From assembly GCA_026991225.1 (NCBI GenBank), contig JALXCB010000169.1:1-37662 (forward strand): a DNA stretch of 37,662 nucleotides. The letters are read 5' to 3'. This document shows, piece after piece, positions 1,510 to 21,433 of the stretch (its first letter is position 1; every line of letters starts with the position of its first letter). The DNA is from Anaerolineae bacterium. GTDB lineage: Bacteria; Chloroflexota; Anaerolineae; J102. The translations under genes and the position numbers were made by a program. The notes under the pieces were generated by a model. The model was not told the origin of the DNA. It did not search any database and worked only from the letters and a program-made list of their open reading frames with translations.

Positions 1510-1585
1510 TCTACGTTTGACGCAACCACGCTCAACCCACGAATTCACATATCTCCAGTAATCTACGGAAAGGAGGACTTCATTC

Positions 1586-4219
<2,634 letters not shown>

Positions 4220-9799: not shown

Positions 9800-9867
9800 A
9801 CACGGATAAAAGGAAACGCGGATGAAAAGCTGAAAAATTTGCTATCCGTGTTTCTTCCTATCCGTGT
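9800..9867. repeat. Inverted repeat family H, copy 1
   Basis: Arms beginning ACACGGAT and ending ATCCGTGT, about 24 bp each with a few mismatches, around a 20-base AT-rich loop. Related copies are at 30505-30566 and inside MITE subfamily c near 25330-25360. Located between cytochrome c and merA. Confidence 0.65.
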
Positions 9868-9917
9868 TGAGACAATGGAAGGCGGAGTGTGGACTTCTTC
9901 TCATCGCTTCAATAATC

Positions 9918-11603
9918 ATGACAAACACGATCACCCTCAAAATCGACGGCATGACCTGCGGCGGCTGCGCCGCGCACGTGCAGGAAGCCCTGGCCCGCGT
10001 GCCCGGCGTCCTCGCCGCGCAGGCGCCTGGCGGGAAGTCGGGCAACGCCATCGTGCGGGCGGAGAACGGCGTCTCGGTCGATGTCCTGATCCGCGCTGTG
10101 GAGGAGGCGGGCTACCGCGCCTCCCTGCCCGAGGCCCCTGACATCCCCTCCGCCACGCCTCAGCCCGCCGCGCCCGCACCCGACTTCACCCTCACGCCCG
10201 CCCACGACTACGACCTCATCGTCATCGGCACGGGGGGCGGCGGCATGGCCGCGGCCATCCGCGGGGCCGAGCAGGGCGCGCGGGTCGCCATCATCGAGGC
10301 GGGAACCATCGGCGGCACCTGCGTCAACATCGGCTGTGTGCCCTCCAAGACCCTGATCCGGGCGGCGGAGCAGGCTCACCGCGCGGATCACAGCGCCTTT
10401 GCCGGGGTCAGAACCCTGACCGTGGGCATCGACTGGCCCGCCATCCGGGCGCAAAAGGATGCCCTGGTAGAGCAGCTCCGCCAGGAAAAATACATCGACG
10501 TGCTGGCCGCCTACCCCGACCAGATCACCCTCATCCGCGGCTGGGCCCGGCTCACGCCCGACCGCCAGGTGGCCGTGGGCGACCGTATCCTCTCCGCCCG
10601 CGCCATCGTCATCGCCACCGGCGCCCGCCCCCGCATCCTGCCCATCCCGGGCGTGGAGGAGACGGGCGCGCTGTCCAGCGCGTCGGCCATGGACCTGGAG
10701 CGCCTGCCCGGGTCCATGATCGTCATCGGGGGGCGCGCGGTGGCCCTGGAGCTGGGGCAGCTATTCGCCCGCCTGGGCGTGCGGGTCACCATCCTGCAGC
10801 GCAGCCCCCGCATCCTGCCCGAACATGAACCGGAGATCAGCGAAGCCCTGACCCGTTATCTGCAGGATGAAGGGCTGCGCGTGGTCACAGGCGTGCGCAT
10901 TCACGCCCTGCACCGCGAGGGTGAAAAGAAGGTGGTGGAGGCGGAGGTGCACGGCCAGGTCTTCACCATGAAGGCGGACGCCATCCTCATGGCCGCGGGC
11001 CGGGAGCCCAACAGCCGCGGCATGGGCCTGGAGGAGGCCGGGATCGAGCTGGACGATGGAGGCTTCATCATCGTGGATGAGCATCTGCGCACGTCCGCGG
11101 CGGGCGTGTACGCGGTGGGCGACGTCACCACCCTGCCCAAGTTCGTCTATACCGCTGCGGCCGCGGGGGGCGTGGCCGCGTCCCATGCCCTGGGCGATGC
11201 AAACGCCCGCCTGGACCTGACCGGCATGCCCGCGGTGGTCTTCACCGATCCTGCGGTGGCTGTAGCCGGGTTGACCGAGGCCCAGGCCCGGGAGCAGGGT
11301 TACGACGTGGAGGTCAGCGTGCTGGAGATGAAGCATGTGCCGCGGGCGCTGGCCGCGTTCGACACGCGCGGGCTGATCAAGCTGGTGGCCGATCCCGATG
11401 CCAACCAGCTTTTGGGCGCGCACATCCTGGCGCCCGAGGCGGGCGAGACGATCCAGGCCGCGTCCCTGGCCATCCGCTTCGGCATCCCCCTGTCATCCTT
11501 CCGCGACGCCCTCTTCTCCTATCTTACCAACGTGGAGGGATTGAAGCTGGCCGCGCTGGCCTTCGAGAAAGCCCCGGCCATGCTCAGTTGCTGCGCGGGA
11601 TAA
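9918..11603 (+). CDS. merA: Mercuric reductase MerA with N-terminal HMA domain
   Basis: A cytosolic FAD/NADPH enzyme that reduces Hg(II) to volatile Hg(0). The 561 residues hold a metal-binding HMA domain (GMTCGGCAAH, Cys14/Cys17), a Pro/Ala linker, the redox-active pair in GGTCVNIGCVPSK (Cys135/Cys140), a dimerisation domain with SYLTNVEGLKLAA, and the C-terminal vicinal cysteines LSCCAG (558-559) that hand mercury to the active site of the partner subunit. All hallmark residues of true MerA are present, not only those of the wider disulfide reductase family. The start ATG 9918 gives the natural HMA N-terminus, though no ribosome site is visible. No merR, merT, merP or merB is adjacent. Confidence 0.95.
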   Translation: MTNTITLKIDGMTCGGCAAHVQEALARVPGVLAAQAPGGKSGNAIVRAENGVSVDVLIRAVEEAGYRASLPEAPDIPSATPQPAAPAPDFTLTPAHDYDLIVIGTGGGGMAAAIRGAEQGARVAIIEAGTIGGTCVNIGCVPSKTLIRAAEQAHRADHSAFAGVRTLTVGIDWPAIRAQKDALVEQLRQEKYIDVLAAYPDQITLIRGWARLTPDRQVAVGDRILSARAIVIATGARPRILPIPGVEETGALSSASAMDLERLPGSMIVIGGRAVALELGQLFARLGVRVTILQRSPRILPEHEPEISEALTRYLQDEGLRVVTGVRIHALHREGEKKVVEAEVHGQVFTMKADAILMAAGREPNSRGMGLEEAGIELDDGGFIIVDEHLRTSAAGVYAVGDVTTLPKFVYTAAAAGGVAASHALGDANARLDLTGMPAVVFTDPAVAVAGLTEAQAREQGYDVEVSVLEMKHVPRALAAFDTRGLIKLVADPDANQLLGAHILAPEAGETIQAASLAIRFGIPLSSFRDALFSYLTNVEGLKLAALAFEKAPAMLSCCAG

Positions 11604-11780: not shown

Positions 11781-13895
11781 TCACCCCTGCAGCATCCGCA
11801 GGCCGCTGGCGATGACGATGAACTCGCTGATCTCGTGCCCCAGCACCGCGATGGGCAGGGTGAGCAGGCCCCCTACCGCACCGATGACCAGGGCGCTGAT
11901 GACCACCGCGGAAAGCGCGATATTCTGTGACACCACCCGCTGATTCCGTCGGGCCAGTTGCAGGGCGTAGACCAGCTTCTCCAGATCGTCGGCCATGAGG
12001 GCCACGTCCGCGGTCTCCAGGGCCACATCCGTGCCCGCCGCGCCCATGGCCACGCCCACGGTGGCCTCGGCCAGCGCCGGCGCGTCGTTCACGCCATCCC
12101 CCACCATGGCCACATGCCCGACCTGCTGGCTCAGCTCCCGCACCCTGGCCACCTTGTCCTCGGGCAGCAGCTCGGCGTAATAGGCGTCCACGCCCACCTC
12201 GCGGGCGATGGCCGCGGCCGTGCGTTCATTGTCGCCCGTGAGCATGACCACCGGGCGGATGCCCAGATCGTGCAGTTGGGCGATGGCCGCGGCCGCGTTC
12301 TCGCGGATGGCGTCGCGAATGGCGATGACGCCCCACACGGCCCTCTCATCCCCGGCCAGGATCACCGTGTTCCCCTCGTCCTGCAACCGCTGGATGGTCT
12401 CGGCCACACCGTCCAGGGCATGGCCCAGCTCCTGGAACAGGGCCGGGCTGCCCACATAGATGGTCTTTCCATCCCAAACCGCCTTCGCGCCCGCGCCCGC
12501 CAACGCCTGGAAGTCCGCGACTTCGGCCGGGCAGATGCCCTGGGCCTGAGCGTAACGCATCACCGCCCGGGCCAGCGGATGCTCGCTGCGGGATTCCAAC
12601 CCAGCCACCGCGGCCAGCCAGGTTTCCTGGGGCAGGGTGCGGTCGAAGCTGAGCACGGTGGTCACCTCGGGCCGGCCTTGGGTGATGGTGCCCGTTTTGT
12701 CCAGGGCCACGACGTTGATTTTGGCCAGTTCCTCCACATAGACGCCCCCCTTGATGAGCACGCCGTTGCGGGCGCCCGTGCCCAGGGTCGCCACCAGGGT
12801 GATGGGGATGGAGATGACCAGAGCGCAGGGGGCGGCGGCCACGATGAACACCGTAGCCCGCTCGATCCAGGTGGTCCAATCGCCGCCCATGAGCAGGGGC
12901 GGGAGGATGGCGATGAGCACGCCCGCCAACAGCACCAACGGGCTGTATCGCCTGCCGAAGCGCTCGATGAAGCGCTGGCTCTTGCCCTTGCGCTCCTGCG
13001 CTTCCTCCACCATCTGGATGATGCGGGAGATGGTGTTGTCGGCAAAGGCTTTCGTGGCCCGCACCTCGATGGCTCCCGCGCCGTTGATAGTCCCGGCAAA
13101 GACGGCGTCCCCCGGCTTCTTCTCCACGGGCGCACTCTCCCCCGTGACGGGGGATTCATCCACCGTGCTGAAGCCGTCGATGATCACGCCGTCGGTGGGG
13201 ATGGATTCACCGGGCCGGACGATGAACACGTCACCCGGAACCAGCTCCTCGGCCGGGATCGCCACCTCCTGGCCGTCGCGTTTCACCCGCGCAGTCTTGG
13301 GGGCCAGCTCCATCAACGCCCGCACCGCGGATCGGGTCTTCTCCTCGGTGTACCCCTCCACCGCCTCGCTGATGGAATAGAGGAAGACGAGCATCGCGGC
13401 CTCGCCCAGCATCCCCATGACCGCGGCCACCACCGCGGCCACGGTCATCAGCAGCTCGATGCCGATCTCCCGCTCGAAGATCAGCTCCTCGATGGCCTCG
13501 CGGCCGAAGTAATAGCCGCCGATGAGGATGGCCGCGATGTAGAGAACCTGGGAGAGGATAGCAGGCGCGGGGGTGAAGCCGAGCAGGAACCCGATCAGCA
13601 GCAACACGCCCGAGGTCACCGACGTGATGACCTTGGGGTTGCGCCAGGGTTTAGGTTGTTCGGGCATGGTCAGCCCTTTGGCGGGCGGGAAGCCGGACGC
13701 CTCCAGCTTCTCCTGCAGGGCCTCTTCGCTGGTCTGCTCAGGGTCGTAGGTGATGACCACCTTGGCCGCCTTGGGATAGATGTCCAGGTCGAGGATGCCG
13801 GGAAAATCTTTCAGGCTGCGTTGGATGGCCGCGGCGTCGTGTTCGCAATCGAGATTGCCGACGCGCAGTTCGATGCGTTGAGACGTTTCAGACAT
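11781..13895 (-). CDS. P1B-type heavy-metal translocating ATPase with APC motif
   Basis: An inner-membrane ATP-driven metal exporter or importer, 704 residues. Visible parts: a degenerate N-terminal HMA-like domain with a single cysteine (LDCEHD, Cys17) instead of CxxC, the actuator loop with VTGES, the phosphorylation site DKTGT (Asp399), a TGDN motif and GDGVNDAPAL. The ion-binding segment in the sixth helix reads AAAPCALVIS (Ala355-Pro-Cys357) where Zn/Cd/Cu pumps have CPC and P1B-4 pumps SPC. The last helix carries HEISEF. Metal specificity therefore cannot be assigned; convergence with merA suggests metal detoxification. Start ATG 13895 has GGAG 6 bases upstream; a longer frame has none. 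The 231 bases up to the next gene show no clear promoter. Confidence 0.93.
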   Translation of the reverse strand: MSETSQRIELRVGNLDCEHDAAAIQRSLKDFPGILDLDIYPKAAKVVITYDPEQTSEEALQEKLEASGFPPAKGLTMPEQPKPWRNPKVITSVTSGVLLLIGFLLGFTPAPAILSQVLYIAAILIGGYYFGREAIEELIFEREIGIELLMTVAAVVAAVMGMLGEAAMLVFLYSISEAVEGYTEEKTRSAVRALMELAPKTARVKRDGQEVAIPAEELVPGDVFIVRPGESIPTDGVIIDGFSTVDESPVTGESAPVEKKPGDAVFAGTINGAGAIEVRATKAFADNTISRIIQMVEEAQERKGKSQRFIERFGRRYSPLVLLAGVLIAILPPLLMGGDWTTWIERATVFIVAAAPCALVISIPITLVATLGTGARNGVLIKGGVYVEELAKINVVALDKTGTITQGRPEVTTVLSFDRTLPQETWLAAVAGLESRSEHPLARAVMRYAQAQGICPAEVADFQALAGAGAKAVWDGKTIYVGSPALFQELGHALDGVAETIQRLQDEGNTVILAGDERAVWGVIAIRDAIRENAAAAIAQLHDLGIRPVVMLTGDNERTAAAIAREVGVDAYYAELLPEDKVARVRELSQQVGHVAMVGDGVNDAPALAEATVGVAMGAAGTDVALETADVALMADDLEKLVYALQLARRNQRVVSQNIALSAVVISALVIGAVGGLLTLPIAVLGHEISEFIVIASGLRMLQG

Positions 13896-14126
13896 GGGCG
13901 TCTCCAATGGGGCGTGTGAAGAAGCAGGTTGGGACGAGGGTCGCATTGGAGAATATCAGTTATGAGGGACATGCGCAAGGAACAACGCAACCTGAACTTC
14001 ACGAATTCTTCACAATCTCACGAATATCCCGACACAAGGCCCTGTTATGATGGAGACAGATAAGCCAATTCACCCCTTTTCAAACAAGGCGCCACGGGCG
14101 ACGGCTCGCCGATATGGATGAAAACG

Positions 14127-15974
14127 TCAGGGATTCTGCAACGCACTGCGTACGACGCCCCCGGCTTGCTGGAGGCGTTGTCGCGCAGCGTCGGGATCAA
14201 TCCCCAACGTATGGCTGACGATGGCGACCTTGACGTCTCCGTCACACCGGGCCAAAACGCGTTGCGCTTCTTCCTCGCTGATATGACACGCCTGGGCCAC
14301 GATACGCCGGGCCCGCACCTGTAACTTGGCGTTGAGCTGCTGCACATCCACCATGAGATTCCCATACGTCTTGCCCAAACGCACCATGACGCCCGTGCTC
14401 AGCATATTCAGTACGAGTTTCTGCACCGTGCCCGCTTTGAGCCGGGTGGAGCCGGCGATGACTTCGGGGCCCACCAGAGGCGCGAGGACGTAATCCGCCA
14501 GGTTGGACATGGGCGCGGGCAGATTGCAGATCAGGGCGATGGTCAGCGCGCCGCGGCCACGGGCTTCGGTCAATGCGCCCATGACGTAGGGCGTGCGGCC
14601 GCTGGCCGCGATGCCCACCACGCTGTCCAGAGGCCCGATGGCCAGATCGCGCATGGCCTGAGCGCCGCTGTCGGGGTCATCCTCGGCCTCTTCCACGGCC
14701 TCGGTCAGGGCCCTGCATCCCCCGGCGATGACGCCCACTACCTGGCCGGGAGCCGAGTTGAAGGTGGGCGGGCATTCGGAGGCGTCCAACACGCCCAACC
14801 GGCCCGACGTGCCTGCGCCCACGTAAATCAACCGCCCTCCCTGCTTCATGCGCGGGGCGATGGCGTCGATGGCTGCGGCAATGTGGGGCAGGACCGGGCG
14901 CACCGCGGCCACCGCCCGCTTGTCCTCCAGGTGCATCAACCCCACTAGCTCCAGCGTGGTGCGCGTGTCCAGATCCAAAGTCAACACATTGCGCTGTTCC
15001 GACGCCCAAATCTCCTCCCCATCCGATTGCTCCAAGCCCTTATCCGTGGGTAGGGGCTGTTTGAGCATCTCCAGCGCCAACAGGGCCGCGCCCGTGGCCG
15101 CATCCGCGCGGGGCGGCATGGGCCGGGCCGCGGGCACGCGCGTGCGGATGGATTGGATGACCACCGCCCGGTAAAACGCGTTCCCTGTCAGCAAACCGCC
15201 TGACAGCGCCAGGGGAAAGGCGTCCTTCAGAGCCAATTGCCGGGCCACCGCGTCCACCCCCGCGGCCAGCGCGTCCGCGGCCTGCAAAACGGCTTCGACG
15301 GCCATGAGATCGCCCGCTTCCGCCTCATCGAGGACCCACGGAGCCAGCGCCGCGATCTGATCGGGTTTGCGTTCGGGCGCATAGAGCCAGGAGATCAGAT
15401 GCTGAGGGGAAGGCAGTTGCAACGCGCTCAGAATGCGTGAGGTGAGGCGCGTGGGCAGGTCATAGCCGTCGTCGGCGCGGGCAATGGCCCGCAACGCATC
15501 CAGGGCGATGGCGTAACCGCTGCCGCCATCCAGCAGATGCCCCCAGCCGCCCGCTCGCGCCGACGCCCCACGCCCATCCTCGCCATAGACCATCATGCCC
15601 GTGCCCGAGATGGCAACCACGCCAAAACGGGCGCCCACGCCGCCCACCAGCGCAGCCACGGCGTCGGGCACCACCCGACCGGGCGTCTCGGGCAGCAATT
15701 CGGCCTGCAATGCCCGCAGGATGCGAGCGTCATCGGGCCTGCCCGCGCCCGCCAGCGCCCACACCACGGCCGCGGCCTGGGACAGGTCCACCCCCGCTGC
15801 GCTGGCCGCTCCCTGCATGGAAGCAGCCAGCGCCTCTCGCACCCCTTGTTTCCCCACGATATGTAAATTGGAGGAGCCGTCTCGCCAGCGGCCCAACTCC
15901 AAACCCACCACATCGAGAATGACGGCTTCGGTCTTGCTGCCGCCGCCATCAACGCCGATGACGAATGGTGTCAT
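14127..15974 (-). CDS. murQ: Fusion of BadF/NagK-type sugar kinase and MurNAc-6-phosphate etherase MurQ
   Basis: One 615-residue cytosolic protein. Residues 1-305 are an ASKHA-fold kinase of the BadF/BcrA/NagK family: phosphate-1 DGGGSKT (9-15), ISGTGMMVYG (122-131), GGWGHLLDGGSG (142-153) and a late LSGGLL (257-262). Residues 325-615 are a complete SIS-fold MurQ: GAGTSGRLG (387-394), the catalytic glutamate in DASECPPTF (Glu400), a second acid in EAEDD (Glu431), and GSTRLKAGT. MurQ removes the lactyl ether of MurNAc-6-phosphate, giving GlcNAc-6-phosphate and D-lactate. A kinase on the same chain would make that substrate from imported free MurNAc, as Clostridium MurK does as a separate protein. 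The start overlaps the previous gene by 4 bases, implying translational coupling. Confidence 0.92.
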   Translation of the reverse strand: MTPFVIGVDGGGSKTEAVILDVVGLELGRWRDGSSNLHIVGKQGVREALAASMQGAASAAGVDLSQAAAVVWALAGAGRPDDARILRALQAELLPETPGRVVPDAVAALVGGVGARFGVVAISGTGMMVYGEDGRGASARAGGWGHLLDGGSGYAIALDALRAIARADDGYDLPTRLTSRILSALQLPSPQHLISWLYAPERKPDQIAALAPWVLDEAEAGDLMAVEAVLQAADALAAGVDAVARQLALKDAFPLALSGGLLTGNAFYRAVVIQSIRTRVPAARPMPPRADAATGAALLALEMLKQPLPTDKGLEQSDGEEIWASEQRNVLTLDLDTRTTLELVGLMHLEDKRAVAAVRPVLPHIAAAIDAIAPRMKQGGRLIYVGAGTSGRLGVLDASECPPTFNSAPGQVVGVIAGGCRALTEAVEEAEDDPDSGAQAMRDLAIGPLDSVVGIAASGRTPYVMGALTEARGRGALTIALICNLPAPMSNLADYVLAPLVGPEVIAGSTRLKAGTVQKLVLNMLSTGVMVRLGKTYGNLMVDVQQLNAKLQVRARRIVAQACHISEEEAQRVLARCDGDVKVAIVSHTLGIDPDAARQRLQQAGGVVRSALQNP

Positions 15975-17191
15975 GGCATGGTCTCCGAATGGTCGTCCAC
16001 TATGGATGCGATGGCTTCATGCAGACGCACGCGAAAGCGCGAGATGGCCTCGCCATCGCGGCCATGGTAAACGCGATTGGTCAAAAGCGCGACGATGAGC
16101 TCCCGATGGGGATCGATCCACATGGAAACGCCGGTGAATCCGGTATGCCCGAAGCTGGAGGGGCCGAAATTTCCTCCCACTGGACTGCCCTGAGGCGACA
16201 TCAACTGCCATCCCAGGCCCCGGCGCTGGGTTTCGTCGCGGACCTGCTCCGACACGGCCTCTGCCGCAAGTGCGGGTGCAAGGATGCCACCGCCGTCATC
16301 CAGATAGCACCGCCCCAGCGCGGCCACGTCCCGGGCCGTGGCGAACAATCCGGCATGGCCCGCCACGCCGCCCAGGCAGGCCGCGTTTTCGTCATGGACT
16401 TCACCCCACAGGCGGCGGCCTCGCCAGGCGCAGAATTCGGTGGGAGCTATGCGTTCGCGAGGCGTGCCGCGGGCGAGGGGGTTGAAGAAGGTCCGGGCGA
16501 GGCCCAGGGGCTCGCATACAGCCTGAGCCAGATACTCGGGCAGACGCTGGCCGGTCAGGCGTTCGATGACTTCGCCCAGGAGGATGAACCCCAAATCGCT
16601 GTAAAGAATGCGCTCGCCCGGAGGATAGACGAAGCGGGGAGCCCGTAGAAACGCGTCGAGCCGTCGTTGACGCGCCTCCGGGGGCAGTCGATGGGGGAAG
16701 ATGGCGGCTTCCTTGCCCTCGCGGCCGCACAGATCCTCCCACGCAGCCAGGCCCGAGGTGTGGGTGAGCAGATGACGAAAGCGCACCCGACCGGCGTCCA
16801 CCCGCTTGCCCTGATAGTTGGGATCGGGCGGGAGGAGCGTCTTCGCGTGGGGATCGATCCCTGGCTGGATGGGGTGGACGCTTCGGAATTCAGGGACGAC
16901 CTCGGCCACGGGCGTATCCAGGCTGACCCTGCCCGCGCTGACCAGGGTGAGAAAGGCCGTGGTTGTAAAAAGTTTCGTCAGGGAAGCCAGGTCGAAAAGG
17001 GTGTCTTCCTGCGTCGGCCATCGCTTCTGTACGGGATCGAGCCAACCATAACTGCGCTGGAAAAGCGTCATCCCACGTTGGTGAATGAGTAACACAGCCG
17101 CGGGAAAGACGGACGCCAATCCCTCCTTCATGATGGCGTCGATGGCATCCTGCTGGGCGGGCGTCAGTTGGACTTCCGTCAAGGTGCGCAT
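15971..17191 (-). CDS. Beta-lactamase-fold serine hydrolase, AmiE (YbbE)-like
   Basis: A 406-residue class C beta-lactamase-fold enzyme. The nucleophile motif is Ser70-Leu-Thr-Lys73, the second motif is YSD where beta-lactamases have YAN, and the third is HTGFTG in place of KTG, as in esterases and amidases of this fold. In Bacillus subtilis the MurNAc recycling cluster encodes such a protein (AmiE/YbbE), which removes peptides from MurNAc. The gene here sits 1 base behind a sugar permease and overlaps the kinase-MurQ gene, so the same role is the best inference. Unlike the exported Bacillus enzyme it has no signal peptide that I can see, so it may work in the cytosol on imported muropeptides. 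A general esterase remains possible. Confidence 0.82.
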   Translation of the reverse strand: MRTLTEVQLTPAQQDAIDAIMKEGLASVFPAAVLLIHQRGMTLFQRSYGWLDPVQKRWPTQEDTLFDLASLTKLFTTTAFLTLVSAGRVSLDTPVAEVVPEFRSVHPIQPGIDPHAKTLLPPDPNYQGKRVDAGRVRFRHLLTHTSGLAAWEDLCGREGKEAAIFPHRLPPEARQRRLDAFLRAPRFVYPPGERILYSDLGFILLGEVIERLTGQRLPEYLAQAVCEPLGLARTFFNPLARGTPRERIAPTEFCAWRGRRLWGEVHDENAACLGGVAGHAGLFATARDVAALGRCYLDDGGGILAPALAAEAVSEQVRDETQRRGLGWQLMSPQGSPVGGNFGPSSFGHTGFTGVSMWIDPHRELIVALLTNRVYHGRDGEAISRFRVRLHEAIASIVDDHSETMP

Positions 17192-17192
17192 C

Positions 17193-18041
17193 CTACTTGC
17201 CGATGCCTGCGGTCAGCCCGGCGATGATCTGTTTGGTGGCCAGCAGAAAGATGACGATCAAGGGCAGGGTGGTGATGATCAGCCCGGCGAAAAGGGTGGA
17301 CCAATCCGCCTGGAATTCGCCGAAGAAGCGGGTCATGCCCACGGGCAAGGTCCACTTGTCGGTGGAACGGAGCAAGACCAGGGGGAAGAAGAAGTCATTC
17401 CACAGGGGGACGAACTGAAAGACGATGACCGTGGCCAGGGCGGGCCGCACCAGGGGGAGCATAATCCTGCCGAAGATGGTGAATTCGCCCGCGCCGTCGA
17501 TGCGCGCGGCCTCGCTGAGCTCCTGGGGCAATTGACGGAAGAAGGAGGAGAGGATGAAGATGGAGAAGGGGATGCCCGTGGCCGCATAAACCAGAATCAA
17601 CCCCAGGCGGTTGTCGATGAGCCCCATATCGTTCAACAGCAGGAACAAGGGGACGATGGCCAGCCGGAAGGGAAGCATGAGCCCGGCCAGGAAATAGGCG
17701 GTCAGCAACATGCTCCCTCGGAATTTGTAGCGCCCGAGCATGTAGCCCGCCAGGGCGGAGACCGCGGTGGCCAGCAACACGGAAACGACGGTGATCACCA
17801 GGGAGTTGAAGAAATAAATGTTGAAGCTGGCTTCTTCCCACGCTTTGACAAAGCTATCGAAGCTGGGCGAGGTGGGCAGCCCCACGGGATTTTTGAAGAT
17901 CTCGCGTGTGGGCCGCAGGGCGTTGCTCACCACCAGCAACAGGGGCAGGATCACGATGGCGGCATAGCCCCACAAGAGCGCGTTGGCCCCGATAGAGGCC
18001 AGGTTGATGCGGCGGGAGGAAGTGCGAGCGTGGTCGCTCAT
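17193..18041 (-). CDS. Sugar ABC transporter permease, MalG/UgpE type
   Basis: A 282-residue inner-membrane permease with six predicted helices and the ATPase-docking EAA loop (EAARIDGAGEFTIFGRI, then MLPLVRP) that defines binding-protein-dependent permeases. The family is CUT1, which imports oligosaccharides or amino sugars. Start overlaps the partner permease gene by 4 bases and the stop lies 1 base before the serine hydrolase, so the four downstream genes are tightly coupled. No ATPase gene is in the operon; such importers often share a MsmK/UgpC-type ATPase made elsewhere. Confidence 0.93.
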   Translation of the reverse strand: MSDHARTSSRRINLASIGANALLWGYAAIVILPLLLVVSNALRPTREIFKNPVGLPTSPSFDSFVKAWEEASFNIYFFNSLVITVVSVLLATAVSALAGYMLGRYKFRGSMLLTAYFLAGLMLPFRLAIVPLFLLLNDMGLIDNRLGLILVYAATGIPFSIFILSSFFRQLPQELSEAARIDGAGEFTIFGRIMLPLVRPALATVIVFQFVPLWNDFFFPLVLLRSTDKWTLPVGMTRFFGEFQADWSTLFAGLIITTLPLIVIFLLATKQIIAGLTAGIGK

Positions 18042-19003
18042 GTCAGTTTTTCCTCCATGTGGCGGAAGTAGCGCAGCATCAACATGGACACGCCGAAGAT
18101 GAAGATGAACATGAGCACAGCCAGCGCGGACGCCAGCCCGAACGCATCCACGCCCCCGCGAAAGGCCGTGCGATAGAACACCAGCCCCAACACGTCGGTG
18201 GCTCCAGCCGGTTCACCGTTGACCCCGCCCATGGCCCACACGATGCCGAAGACGTTGAAGTTGCCGATGAAGGTGAGCACCGTCACGATGCCGATGACGG
18301 GCAGGAGCAAAGGCAGTTCGATATAGCGAAACAGCTTCCAACTGGTGGCGCCATCGATTCGGGCCGCCTCGCGCAATTCGTTGCTGATGCCTGCCAGCCC
18401 TGCCGAGAAAAGCAGCATGGGGAAGCCCACCCATTGCCAGGCGTTGGCGAAAATGATAGCGGGCAGGGCGGTGGCCGGATCGCCCAACCAGGGACGAGCC
18501 AACGATTCCAGCCCGATGGCCCGCAAAATCTGATTCACCGGCCCGAATAACGGATTCAACATCAGGCTCCACAGATAGCCCACCACCAGGGCGCTGATGA
18601 GGTAGGGCAGGGTGAACACCGTTTGAAAAAAGCGCTTGCCAAAGCGGGAAGCGTAGAGCAGCTTGGCAAACAGCAGTCCAAGAGTGTTCTGAATGAGCAT
18701 GGTGCCGATGAAAAAATAGACATTATGCCAAAAGGCATTGGGCAACTGCTCATTCAAAGGGTATCGGGTGAACAATTCATGAAAATTGCGCAATCCCACG
18801 AATCCGCCGCGCGCCAATCCTTTGAACTCGAAGAAGCTGAAATACAGGGACTGGAACAGAGGCCAGATCATGAAAATGGTGTAAAGCAAAAAGGCCGGAA
18901 GGATGAACAGCGCGATCATTTCCCAGGATGGCGCGCCCGTTCCCACGCCCCTGACGCGTTTGCGTTTTTTGCCCTTGGCTTGATTGGCGGTGGAAGCGGT
19001 CAT
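18038..19003 (-). CDS. Sugar ABC transporter permease, MalF/UgpA type
   Basis: A 321-residue CUT1 permease: a basic cytoplasmic N-terminus (KGKKRKRVRG), six predicted helices and the EAA loop EAARIDGATSWKLF followed by ELPLLLP. It pairs with the next gene to form the channel. ATG 19003 was chosen over an upstream frame start at 19057 because the extra residues are encoded by the intergenic hairpin, and CGAGG precedes this ATG. The gap to the binding-protein gene holds a strong hairpin and a MITE. Confidence 0.92.
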   Translation of the reverse strand: MTASTANQAKGKKRKRVRGVGTGAPSWEMIALFILPAFLLYTIFMIWPLFQSLYFSFFEFKGLARGGFVGLRNFHELFTRYPLNEQLPNAFWHNVYFFIGTMLIQNTLGLLFAKLLYASRFGKRFFQTVFTLPYLISALVVGYLWSLMLNPLFGPVNQILRAIGLESLARPWLGDPATALPAIIFANAWQWVGFPMLLFSAGLAGISNELREAARIDGATSWKLFRYIELPLLLPVIGIVTVLTFIGNFNVFGIVWAMGGVNGEPAGATDVLGLVFYRTAFRGGVDAFGLASALAVLMFIFIFGVSMLMLRYFRHMEEKLT

Positions 19004-19024
19004 CTTGGCGAACCTCGAAAAGGG

Positions 19025-19057
19025 ATGGTTGGCGGGCGGGGGAGACCCGCCAACCAT
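19025..19057 (-). promoter_or_regulatory. Intercistronic hairpin between binding protein and permease
   Basis: A perfect 12-bp stem ATGGTTGGCGGG (19025-19036) with CCCGCCAACCAT (19046-19057) and a 9-base loop. It has no U-run. In operons of this kind such hairpins often protect the 3' end of the binding-protein message and lower permease output; that role is inference. Confidence 0.6.
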
Positions 19058-19239: not shown

Positions 19240-20613
19240 CTATTTCTTGGGTTTGAACCACTGAGAGATGCCTTCTTGCAGGCTCTGGGCGACCTCTTCC
19301 GCAGTCATCTCGCCCAGCAGCATCTTCTGGATGCCATTGCCCAGCAAGGTGGTGCCAGAGGGATCGCCATAGCGGAAGTCCACCAGCAGCATGTAAGACG
19401 CCGGGGTCTCCTCATAGAACTTGGCGAACTGGGCCAGAACCGGGTCCTTGGGTTCGGTGCCCGGCACGGGCGAGAGCTGCTTGATCTTCTCGGTGAACAT
19501 TTGCCCGAACTCCTTCGTGCCCATCCATTCCACCAGCTTGATGGCTTCCTCTTTGGCGTCGCTGTTGGCGTTGACGCCGTAGGAGCCGTCCATCCAGCCG
19601 GGGGTCAGGGGATGGTCGATGACCGAGTCGGGAGCCGGGGGCACGCGGAAGATGCCGATATCCAGATCGGGGCCCTCGTTGCGCCAGTAACCCACTTCGA
19701 AGGAGCCGCCCAGGAAGATGCCAGCGCGTTCGGTGAGGAAGAGGGTGCGGGAATCCTGGTAGCTGACGCCGACCACGTTATCGGGCATGTAGGGCTGGAG
19801 GTCCTTCACCAGTTGGATGGAGGCGACGTAGTTGGGGTCAGTGAAGTCGGTTTCGCCCGCCAGGATCTTCTTCTCGAACTCAGGACCGCCGTAGCGAGGT
19901 GCGCCCACGGTCTCGTGGATGATGGGCAGCATCCAGGTGTCTTTGGCGGGCGCGGCGATGGGGATGTAGCCTTCTTTCTTCAGCGTCTCCAGCGCGTTGA
20001 TGAATTCATCCCAGGTGGTCGGTTCGCTCAGGCCCAGTTTGTCGAAGATGCCTTTGTTGTAGTAGGCGGCCAGGGTCTGAATGCCGAAGGGGACGCCGTA
20101 AATGTGGCCATCCTTCACGCCCATGGCGCCCTTGAGCAGGTCGGGCGAGAAGTTGGAGAGGGTGGCGACTTTACCATCCAGGGGCTCAAGCTGGCCCGCT
20201 TCCACCAACGGCTGGAGGCCGCCGTAGGCCCGCAACTGCACCACGTCCGGACCGCCTTCACCGGTCAGGCCCGTGGCCAGAATGTTGTTGTAGTCGGTGG
20301 CGACGAAGGGCACGAATTCCACAGTGACGTTGGGATGCTCTTTTTCGTACACGTCGAAGATCTCGTTGTAAGCATCCTCGTCTTCGGTGCGCCACGACCA
20401 GACTGTCAGGGTGACGGGGGCCATTTCCTCGGCCTTGGGAGCTTCGGTGGCCATCTCTTTGGGCGCTTCGGTGGGTTTTTCCTGTGCAGGAGCCTGGGTG
20501 GCCGCGGGTTTTTGTTGGGCGGGGGCTTGGGTGGCCGCGGGCTGTTGGGCGCAGCCTGCCACCACTACCAGCAGCAGGATGAATACAGTCAGTTTGAGCA
20601 AAGTTGATTTCAT
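19240..20613 (-). CDS. Sugar-binding lipoprotein of CUT1 ABC transporter
   Basis: The extracellular solute-binding subunit, 457 residues. A lipoprotein signal (lipobox VAGC, Cys21) is followed by a long Ala/Pro/Gln/Thr linker (about 22-70) and then a family 1 extracellular solute-binding domain starting TLTVWSW and ending in KPKK. ATG 20613 was chosen because it gives the signal peptide and has AGGAG about 12 bases upstream; the open frame extends 74 residues further into a region without signal character. Its place between a DasR/NagR-like regulator and a kinase-MurQ fusion suggests MurNAc, GlcNAc or a muropeptide as ligand, but the ligand cannot be read from sequence. Confidence 0.92.
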   Translation of the reverse strand: MKSTLLKLTVFILLLVVVAGCAQQPAATQAPAQQKPAATQAPAQEKPTEAPKEMATEAPKAEEMAPVTLTVWSWRTEDEDAYNEIFDVYEKEHPNVTVEFVPFVATDYNNILATGLTGEGGPDVVQLRAYGGLQPLVEAGQLEPLDGKVATLSNFSPDLLKGAMGVKDGHIYGVPFGIQTLAAYYNKGIFDKLGLSEPTTWDEFINALETLKKEGYIPIAAPAKDTWMLPIIHETVGAPRYGGPEFEKKILAGETDFTDPNYVASIQLVKDLQPYMPDNVVGVSYQDSRTLFLTERAGIFLGGSFEVGYWRNEGPDLDIGIFRVPPAPDSVIDHPLTPGWMDGSYGVNANSDAKEEAIKLVEWMGTKEFGQMFTEKIKQLSPVPGTEPKDPVLAQFAKFYEETPASYMLLVDFRYGDPSGTTLLGNGIQKMLLGEMTAEEVAQSLQEGISQWFKPKK

Positions 20614-20704
20614 GATCGCTTTTTTCTCCTGAATTGAGTGAAGTCGGATGAAATGACATGACTTGGCGAGGGTGATTGGCTCACATGGCAACCTCCTGTT
20701 CGTA

Positions 20705-21433
20705 TCACAAGGCGTTGAGCTCAGCCTGGAAGACGTAACGGTCGGCGCGATAAGCGGATTCCGTGTACTCGAAAGGACGCCCCCACTGGTCGTAGGTGAT
20801 GCGCTTGTTCCGCAGCACGGGCGCGCCCTCCCCAATGTTCAGCAATTTTTGTTCCCGCTTTCTGCAAAGATCAGCCCCGATCTTCTGCACGGCCCGGGCC
20901 GGCGATATCTGATACTTCTCCGACAGGATGCTATAGAGAGAATGGTTTTCGAAATCCTCATTTAGCAGGGCCTCGACGCCCGGGAAATGAAGATGGCTGG
21001 TTTCCAGGGCGATAGGCTCCTCCTCGGCCAGACGCAGGCGCTCCAGCAACACGATTTTTTCATCCGGCGTGATTTGCAGCGCCTGCATGGCCAGTAAAGG
21101 AGGCTGGATGAGCTCCAACCGGATGACGCGGGCGCCCGGCCTCAGCCCGCGGGCCTTCATATCCTCGGTGAAACCGGTGAGCCGCGTCAGACCATGTTCG
21201 ATCTTCGGTTCGGCCACAAACGTCCCGCGCCCCTGCTCCCGTCGCAACAAGCCCTCTGTGGCCAGTTCGCTCAGAGCCTGGCGCGCGGTCATACGGCTGA
21301 TGTGATACTGTTCGCTCAACTCGCGCTCCGATGGCACCATATCCCCCGGCTTCCACTCGCCCGACGCGATCTTTTCCCGCAGCATTTCCTTGAGCTGGAA
21401 GTAGATGGGTAGGGGATGATTTTTGTCGATCAT
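20705..21433 (-). CDS. GntR-family regulator, HutC/DasR/NagR subfamily
   Basis: A 242-residue transcription factor: winged helix DNA-binding domain (about 7-72, with SERELSEQYHISRMTARQAL as the recognition part) and a C-terminal UTRA ligand-binding domain (about 95-236). Members of this subfamily such as DasR and YvoA/NagR bind phosphorylated amino sugars and repress amino-sugar uptake and catabolic genes. GlcNAc-6-phosphate, the MurQ product, would be a fitting signal. It is the first gene of the operon and its own promoter overlaps a matching operator, so autoregulation is likely. No strong ribosome site precedes ATG 21433. Confidence 0.92.
   Translation of the reverse strand: MIDKNHPLPIYFQLKEMLREKIASGEWKPGDMVPSERELSEQYHISRMTARQALSELATEGLLRREQGRGTFVAEPKIEHGLTRLTGFTEDMKARGLRPGARVIRLELIQPPLLAMQALQITPDEKIVLLERLRLAEEEPIALETSHLHFPGVEALLNEDFENHSLYSILSEKYQISPARAVQKIGADLCRKREQKLLNIGEGAPVLRNKRITYDQWGRPFEYTESAYRADRYVFQAELNAL

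Follow-up and report, generated by a model that had tools for sequence, protein, structure and literature searches.

A BadF/NAGK-type sugar kinase fused to a full MurQ etherase in Anaerolineae, a predicted two-step enzyme of amino-sugar catabolism

The stretch of DNA analysed here, 37,662 nt of contig JALXCB010000169.1 from an Anaerolineae bacterium (Chloroflexota; Anaerolineae; J102; assembly GCA_026991225.1) and hereafter called the window, encodes a BadF/NAGK-type sugar kinase joined to a full MurQ etherase in one 615-residue chain. The identity of the two domains, the conservation of their catalytic residues, the operon in which the gene lies, the conservation of the fusion and the purifying selection acting on it are established by computation. 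As for its function, we infer that the protein is probably a bifunctional enzyme of amino-sugar catabolism, which would convert MurNAc and ATP into MurNAc-6P, and MurNAc-6P into GlcNAc-6P and D-lactate; the substrates, the activity and the order of the two steps all belong to this probable reading.

Two domains in one reading frame

The original prediction, made on the letters of the window, was that a sugar kinase and MurQ are carried by a single polypeptide, and this was confirmed. Pfam family PF01869 (BcrAD_BadFG) matches residues 6-300 (1.4e-32, 113.7 bits for a cut-off of 31.5), and the NCBIfam equivalog TIGR00274, MurQ, matches residues 325-612 (366 bits for a cut-off of 302), both in one uninterrupted frame. 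Domain extents in the window protein are approximately 4-305 for the kinase and 325-613 for MurQ. No NCBIfam kinase equivalog scored above its cut-off with this protein (NagK_SO3507 gave 80 bits, for 370 required), and no match to PF03702 (AnmK) was present in the Pfam scan. The protein also gives Pfam matches to GKRP, which reflect the common SIS fold; a GKRP identity was rejected, as the protein has a single MurQ unit that retains the two catalytic Glu. Coordinates of all features are reported in Table 1.

Table 1. Features of the kinase-MurQ gene, of its operon, and loci of AnmK-MurQ fusions (window coordinates)
Feature	Position	Strand	Basis or remark
Kinase-MurQ fusion gene	14127..15974	minus	single ORF, ATG start, 615 aa + stop, no internal stop
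Kinase domain, residues 1-305, BadF/NAGK/MurK type	15060..15974	minus	PF01869; fold match to 8zo3 (CaMurK)
D104, putative catalytic base (kinase)	15663..15665	minus	aligned to the Asp in NDA of CaMurK and in TDA of human NAGK
Sugar-binding loop, residues 142-153, GGWGHLLDGGSG	15516..15551	minus	one-residue deletion, Glu of GDEGS lost; alignments
Linker, residues 306-323	15006..15059	minus	length and sequence vary among fusions; pLDDT block of 65 at 311-320
MurQ etherase domain, residues 324-615	14130..15005	minus	TIGR00274 above cut-off; fold match to 4s12
E400, first MurQ catalytic acid	14775..14777	minus	in register with 4lzj residue 89; kept in all fusions aligned
E431, second MurQ catalytic acid	14682..14684	minus	in register with 4lzj residue 120; kept in fusions
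Serine hydrolase, Beta-lactamase family (AmiE/PBP4B-like)	15971..17191	minus	PF00144, 4.7e-65; stop overlaps fusion start (ATGA)
Sugar ABC transporter permease	17193..18041	minus	PF00528; synteny
Sugar ABC transporter permease	18038..19057	minus	PF00528; synteny
Solute-binding protein	19240..20835	minus	PF01547; listed start TTG
GntR/UTRA regulator, head of operon	20705..21433	minus	PF00392, PF07702
AnmK-MurQ fusion loci L085, L086, L101, L149, L153, L155, L156, L157, L159, L160			

An AlphaFold2 model of the fusion, built on an alignment of 53 sequences gathered in this analysis, reached a pLDDT of 94.3 and a pTM of 0.92. Local confidence falls in the linker and in the block of residues 141-150 (pLDDT 73), which holds the shortened sugar loop. 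The kinase half of the model superposes on the MurK of C. acetobutylicum (8zo3, hereafter CaMurK) with a Z score of 36.3, a rmsd of 2.4 and 31% identity over 304 aligned residues, and the MurQ half on 4s12 with a Z score of 38.9, a rmsd of 1.3 and 53% identity over 292 residues. GKRP was also found among the Foldseek matches to the model.

We then considered the catalytic residues. The claim that the C-terminal half holds both MurQ catalytic acids proved right: E400 and E431 correspond to positions 89 and 120 in 4lzj, the MurQ of H. influenzae, the established catalytic pair. For the kinase half, the claim had been that all ASKHA motifs are there, and it holds only in part. The catalytic Asp, two phosphate loops and the adenosine motif are all present, with, beside D104, the sequences DGGGSKT at residues 9-15, SGTG at 123-126 and SGG at 258-260 in the alignments. 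The GDEGS sugar loop, in contrast, is one residue short and has lost its Glu: it reads GWGH-LL-DGGS, with a Gly in place of Glu, whereas its kin have GWGH-xx-GDEGS, a form shown intact by CaMurK, human NAGK and almost every stand-alone Chloroflexota kinase linked to murQ. In T. forsythia MurK, from which the role of the Asp equivalent to D104 (D95) is also taken, the GDEGS loop contains an Asp that binds O1 of the sugar (PMC10465942). Because this loop is shortened and deprived of its Glu, the activity or the specificity of the kinase may differ in the main fusion clade described below. GDEGS is not a strict defining feature, as it varies in other members too, and the change therefore lowers certainty on activity and specificity, not on the fold assignment. 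Nearly all the aligned fusions have D104, E400, E431 and both phosphate loops.

Distribution of the fusion and repeated joining of MurQ to kinases

The fusion was surveyed in 376 genomes of the same GTDB class as the window. Full-length fusions in one frame were found in 12 genomes belonging to 8 GTDB families (f1, f8, f14, f103, f104, f126, f129 and f135). In six further f1 genomes, the fusion was cut by contig ends, divided between contigs, or seen through its MurQ part alone. Fusion proteins scanned with Pfam had PF01869 and MurQ-type SIS domains. The linker is variable, about 15 to 20 residues long in most fusions, and the MurQ part begins at a constant place. Ratios of dN/dS, from a basic Nei-Gojobori count in which dS was high, were 0.14 in each half for the comparison of the window with L114, and 0.05 to 0.33 for the other pairs; kinase halves with intact motifs gave 0.08 to 0.32. 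In several pairs the kinase half evolves faster than the MurQ half. We conclude that both halves are under purifying selection, and that the fusion is an old, maintained gene, since it is found full-length in many genomes, with low dN/dS and a constant MurQ start. A separate MurQ may also be produced, by internal initiation within the fusion gene.

In the phylum, kinase and murQ genes are commonly adjacent but separate, side by side in either order, and one could suspect that an error of sequencing or assembly fused two such neighbours, or that a stop codon was lost recently. We regard this as having next to no chance of being correct: most of the 12 full-length, one-frame fusions, from 8 families, group in one clade of the MurQ tree supported at 100/100, and their MurQ part starts at the same position after a short linker. 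Twelve independent genomes thus rule out a frameshift, a chimaera or a lost stop.

As to fusions outside Chloroflexota, the clear kinase fusions among the loci of a contig scan, which reaches close relatives only, belonged to this phylum. L064, a further candidate, was discarded: its match started at query residue 197, and it is in fact a separate MurQ of 299 aa. Among 121 plasmid records, none covered 80% of the query in one place; for this question, both the scan and the plasmid search are weak.

The main clade of the MurQ tree comprises 19 sequences, of which 14 are fusions and 5 are incomplete; the same proteins together with L148 form one clade in two kinase trees (100/98 and 90/96). This main clade is marked by the one-residue deletion of the sugar loop; in L146, the loop is altered but of normal length. 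The kinase half of L144 (1501-3369, plus strand) no longer has the catalytic Asp (its sequence there is SHAAATL) or the DGGG loop, for which reason its kinase is probably dead, while the MurQ acids remain; L144 is probably a pseudokinase fusion. Another fusion, L147 (f103), lies outside the main clade and has an intact GDEGS and a longer, proline-rich linker. A reversed order, with MurQ N-terminal and a BadF-type kinase, of intact GDEGS, C-terminal, was found in one genome (L150, 454-2676, minus strand; f114, G550), likewise outside the main clade. In the kinase trees, this kinase clusters with those stand-alone kinases of the class located behind murQ, in the same order.

A different kinase, AnmK, was found in front of MurQ in 10 genomes checked, from families f3, f118 and f129, with open frames of about 690-770 aa. 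The MurQ tree does not unite these AnmK-MurQ fusions in a single clade (2 changes). MurNAc-6P is produced by AnmK as well as by MurK, two distinct families, and UniProt holds automatic entries for AnmK-MurQ as "multifunctional fusion proteins". By our reading of the trees, the joining of MurQ to a kinase took place three times or more in the class, and this repetition suggests that joining both steps is advantageous.

Operon and genome surroundings

The fusion is the last gene of a tight co-directional operon, with 4-base overlaps at its start and between the two permeases. The order GntR, solute-binding protein, permease, permease, hydrolase, fusion is identical in four other loci (L005, L129, L131 and L133), and L008 has the same order from the solute-binding protein on, the GntR gene not being in the stretch examined. 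The open frame of the solute-binding protein overlaps the GntR gene, so that its true start is probably downstream of the TTG; homology in several relatives starts near residue 120. For the serine hydrolase, the best NCBIfam model is PBP4B, with 153 bits, under its cut-off. In B. subtilis, the murQ cluster includes the gene for AmiE, a MurNAc-L-alanine amidase (PMC5061867), and the hydrolase of the window may, by analogy, be its counterpart. At L007, which belongs to another family, the fusion is directly preceded, in place of the hydrolase, by NamZ, an exo-beta-N-acetylmuramidase by Pfam family. Regulators of the GntR type, 48-51% identical to that of the window, precede separate murQ-murK genes in other Chloroflexota. 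With its transporter and hydrolase, the NamZ neighbour in L007 and the kin of its regulator, the operon therefore points to the uptake and use of MurNAc or muropeptides.

Family searches in the window's genome, a MAG that is 97% complete, found no classical NagA above cut-off, no NamZ and no AnmK. By known families, the pathway around the fusion is thus incomplete; given the completeness of the MAG, such absences are not proof. Several amidohydrolases are present. The sole PF01182 match of the genome was considered as NagB and rejected: it lies beside a transaldolase and looks like a 6-phosphogluconolactonase. The same genome encodes a second BadF-family protein (L002, 1438-3332, minus strand), 32% identical to the kinase half and with altered motifs, whose gene overlaps by 4 bases that of a YdjC/ChbG-type carbohydrate deacetylase, a possible kinase-deacetylase pair. 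Elsewhere in the window, a mercuric reductase with an N-terminal HMA domain (9864-11603, plus strand; TIGR02053 above cut-off) is adjoined on the opposite strand by a heavy-metal P-type ATPase with a HMA domain (11781-13946, minus strand), and in region 1580-4219 each strand has an open frame of 877 aa, the minus-strand one being devoid of Pfam match.

Proposed function and comparison with known systems

The substrate would arrive via the ABC transporter of the operon and, when bearing a peptide, would be trimmed by the AmiE/PBP4B-like hydrolase. Using ATP, the N-terminal MurK-type kinase would then phosphorylate O6 of MurNAc, and perhaps that of GlcNAc, after which D-lactate would be eliminated from MurNAc-6-phosphate by the C-terminal MurQ domain, leaving GlcNAc-6-phosphate. 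Both activities would be coupled by the fusion in space and in stoichiometry. MurNAc phosphorylation and lactyl removal, as in the original prediction, is the best-supported reading, with MurK and MurQ as nearest solved relatives, an uptake operon, and AnmK-MurQ fusions alongside. That the fused kinase works for MurQ is argued most strongly by the repeated joining of MurQ to two kinase families having known MurNAc-6P-forming members. By its sequence, the kinase may prefer either MurNAc or GlcNAc: the pocket at residues 142-144 is GGW, as in CaMurK, an enzyme named for both sugars, and as in NAGK, with no Glu or His there to clash with the lactyl ether of MurNAc; it differs from the S133-P134-L135 of the T. 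forsythia MurK sugar pocket (PMC10465942).

This pocket lends itself to another explanation, in which a GlcNAc-preferring or broad hexosamine kinase, mainly salvaging GlcNAc, that of muropeptides included, is tethered to MurQ, and the two halves, instead of working one after the other, would both supply a single GlcNAc-6P pool. CaMurK, the nearest solved relative, was solved with GlcNAc, and the position preceding the catalytic Asp (T94 in T. forsythia MurK) is occupied by P, T, H or N among the fusions. Nevertheless, MurQ is the constant partner, the other kinase fused to it, AnmK, makes MurNAc-6P, and the fusion of L007 has NamZ next to it; we therefore judge this explanation unlikely, while keeping it as a serious one. 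It may also be asked whether the kinase half has degenerated and has mostly a structural or regulatory role, as a sugar or nucleotide sensor controlling MurQ, loosely as in the GKRP-glucokinase pair. The fusion-specific deletion and lost Glu of the sugar loop, the lost Asp of L144, the faster evolution of the kinase half in several pairs and the GKRP match in Foldseek all go in that direction. However, the catalytic Asp, the phosphate loops and the adenosine motif are kept in nearly all other fusions aligned, the dN/dS of kinase halves with intact motifs is low, and a kinase is needed, since ABC import does not phosphorylate and no AnmK was found in the genome. We hold a degenerate kinase half to be very improbable.

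Coming back to an active kinase acting ahead of MurQ, a direct transfer of MurNAc-6P from kinase to etherase (channelling), with no release of the intermediate as in the original prediction, is no more than possible. That MurNAc-6P is handed over directly, that the shortened loop is adapted to the coupled reaction, and that repeated fusions reflect selection against free MurNAc-6P would be a more ambitious combination, and we consider it improbable.

Separate MurK and MurQ were already known; what is new is the fused form, a novelty judged mainly within Chloroflexota, other phyla being thinly surveyed. In a literature partially covered, with few subscription journals and hence with room for an earlier mention, we found no description of a MurNAc kinase-MurQ or AnmK-MurQ fusion. 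One class has fused MurQ to a kinase several times, with a MurK-type kinase in front, a MurK-type kinase behind, or AnmK in front, and each time the partner is a kinase expected to make the substrate of MurQ. The system is neat, recurrent and directly testable, although its components are enzymes already known, as is their pathway. It is a good test case for asking whether MurNAc-6P is worth keeping from diffusing, it extends peptidoglycan-sugar salvage to the little-studied Anaerolineae, and its predicted activity would provide, ready-made, a single enzyme leading from MurNAc to GlcNAc-6P.

Compared with known systems, the kinase half resembles CaMurK over its whole length, by sequence (2.4e-36) and by fold, with the catalytic Asp, the phosphate loops and the GGW pocket in common. 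CaMurK, which accepts both MurNAc and GlcNAc, is however a separate protein with an intact GDEGS, whereas the window kinase is fused to MurQ and has a loop one residue shorter. The whole C-terminal half is like MurQ (TIGR00274; 4s12 and 4lzj), with 47-54% identity, a rmsd of 1.3 and both catalytic Glu, but MurQ is normally free-standing, with some 300 residues, while that of the window carries a kinase at its N-terminus. The MurT-MurK-MurQ operon of T. forsythia (PMC5790795, PMC10465942) likewise has neighbouring kinase and etherase genes for both proposed steps; these genes are separate and go with a symporter, where the window operon has an ABC transporter, and T. forsythia MurK is a distant relative of the window kinase (16-18% identity). 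In animals, a MurQ-like SIS protein, GKRP, works with glucokinase, a sugar kinase from the superfamily of the window kinase, but GKRP has two SIS domains, serves as a regulator and is separate from glucokinase, and the window protein has one MurQ unit with intact acids. Finally, the AnmK-MurQ fusions of the same class also place N-terminal to MurQ a kinase whose product is the MurQ substrate, and differ by the kinase itself, which is AnmK (PF03702), acting on 1,6-anhydroMurNAc, and not of the BadF type.
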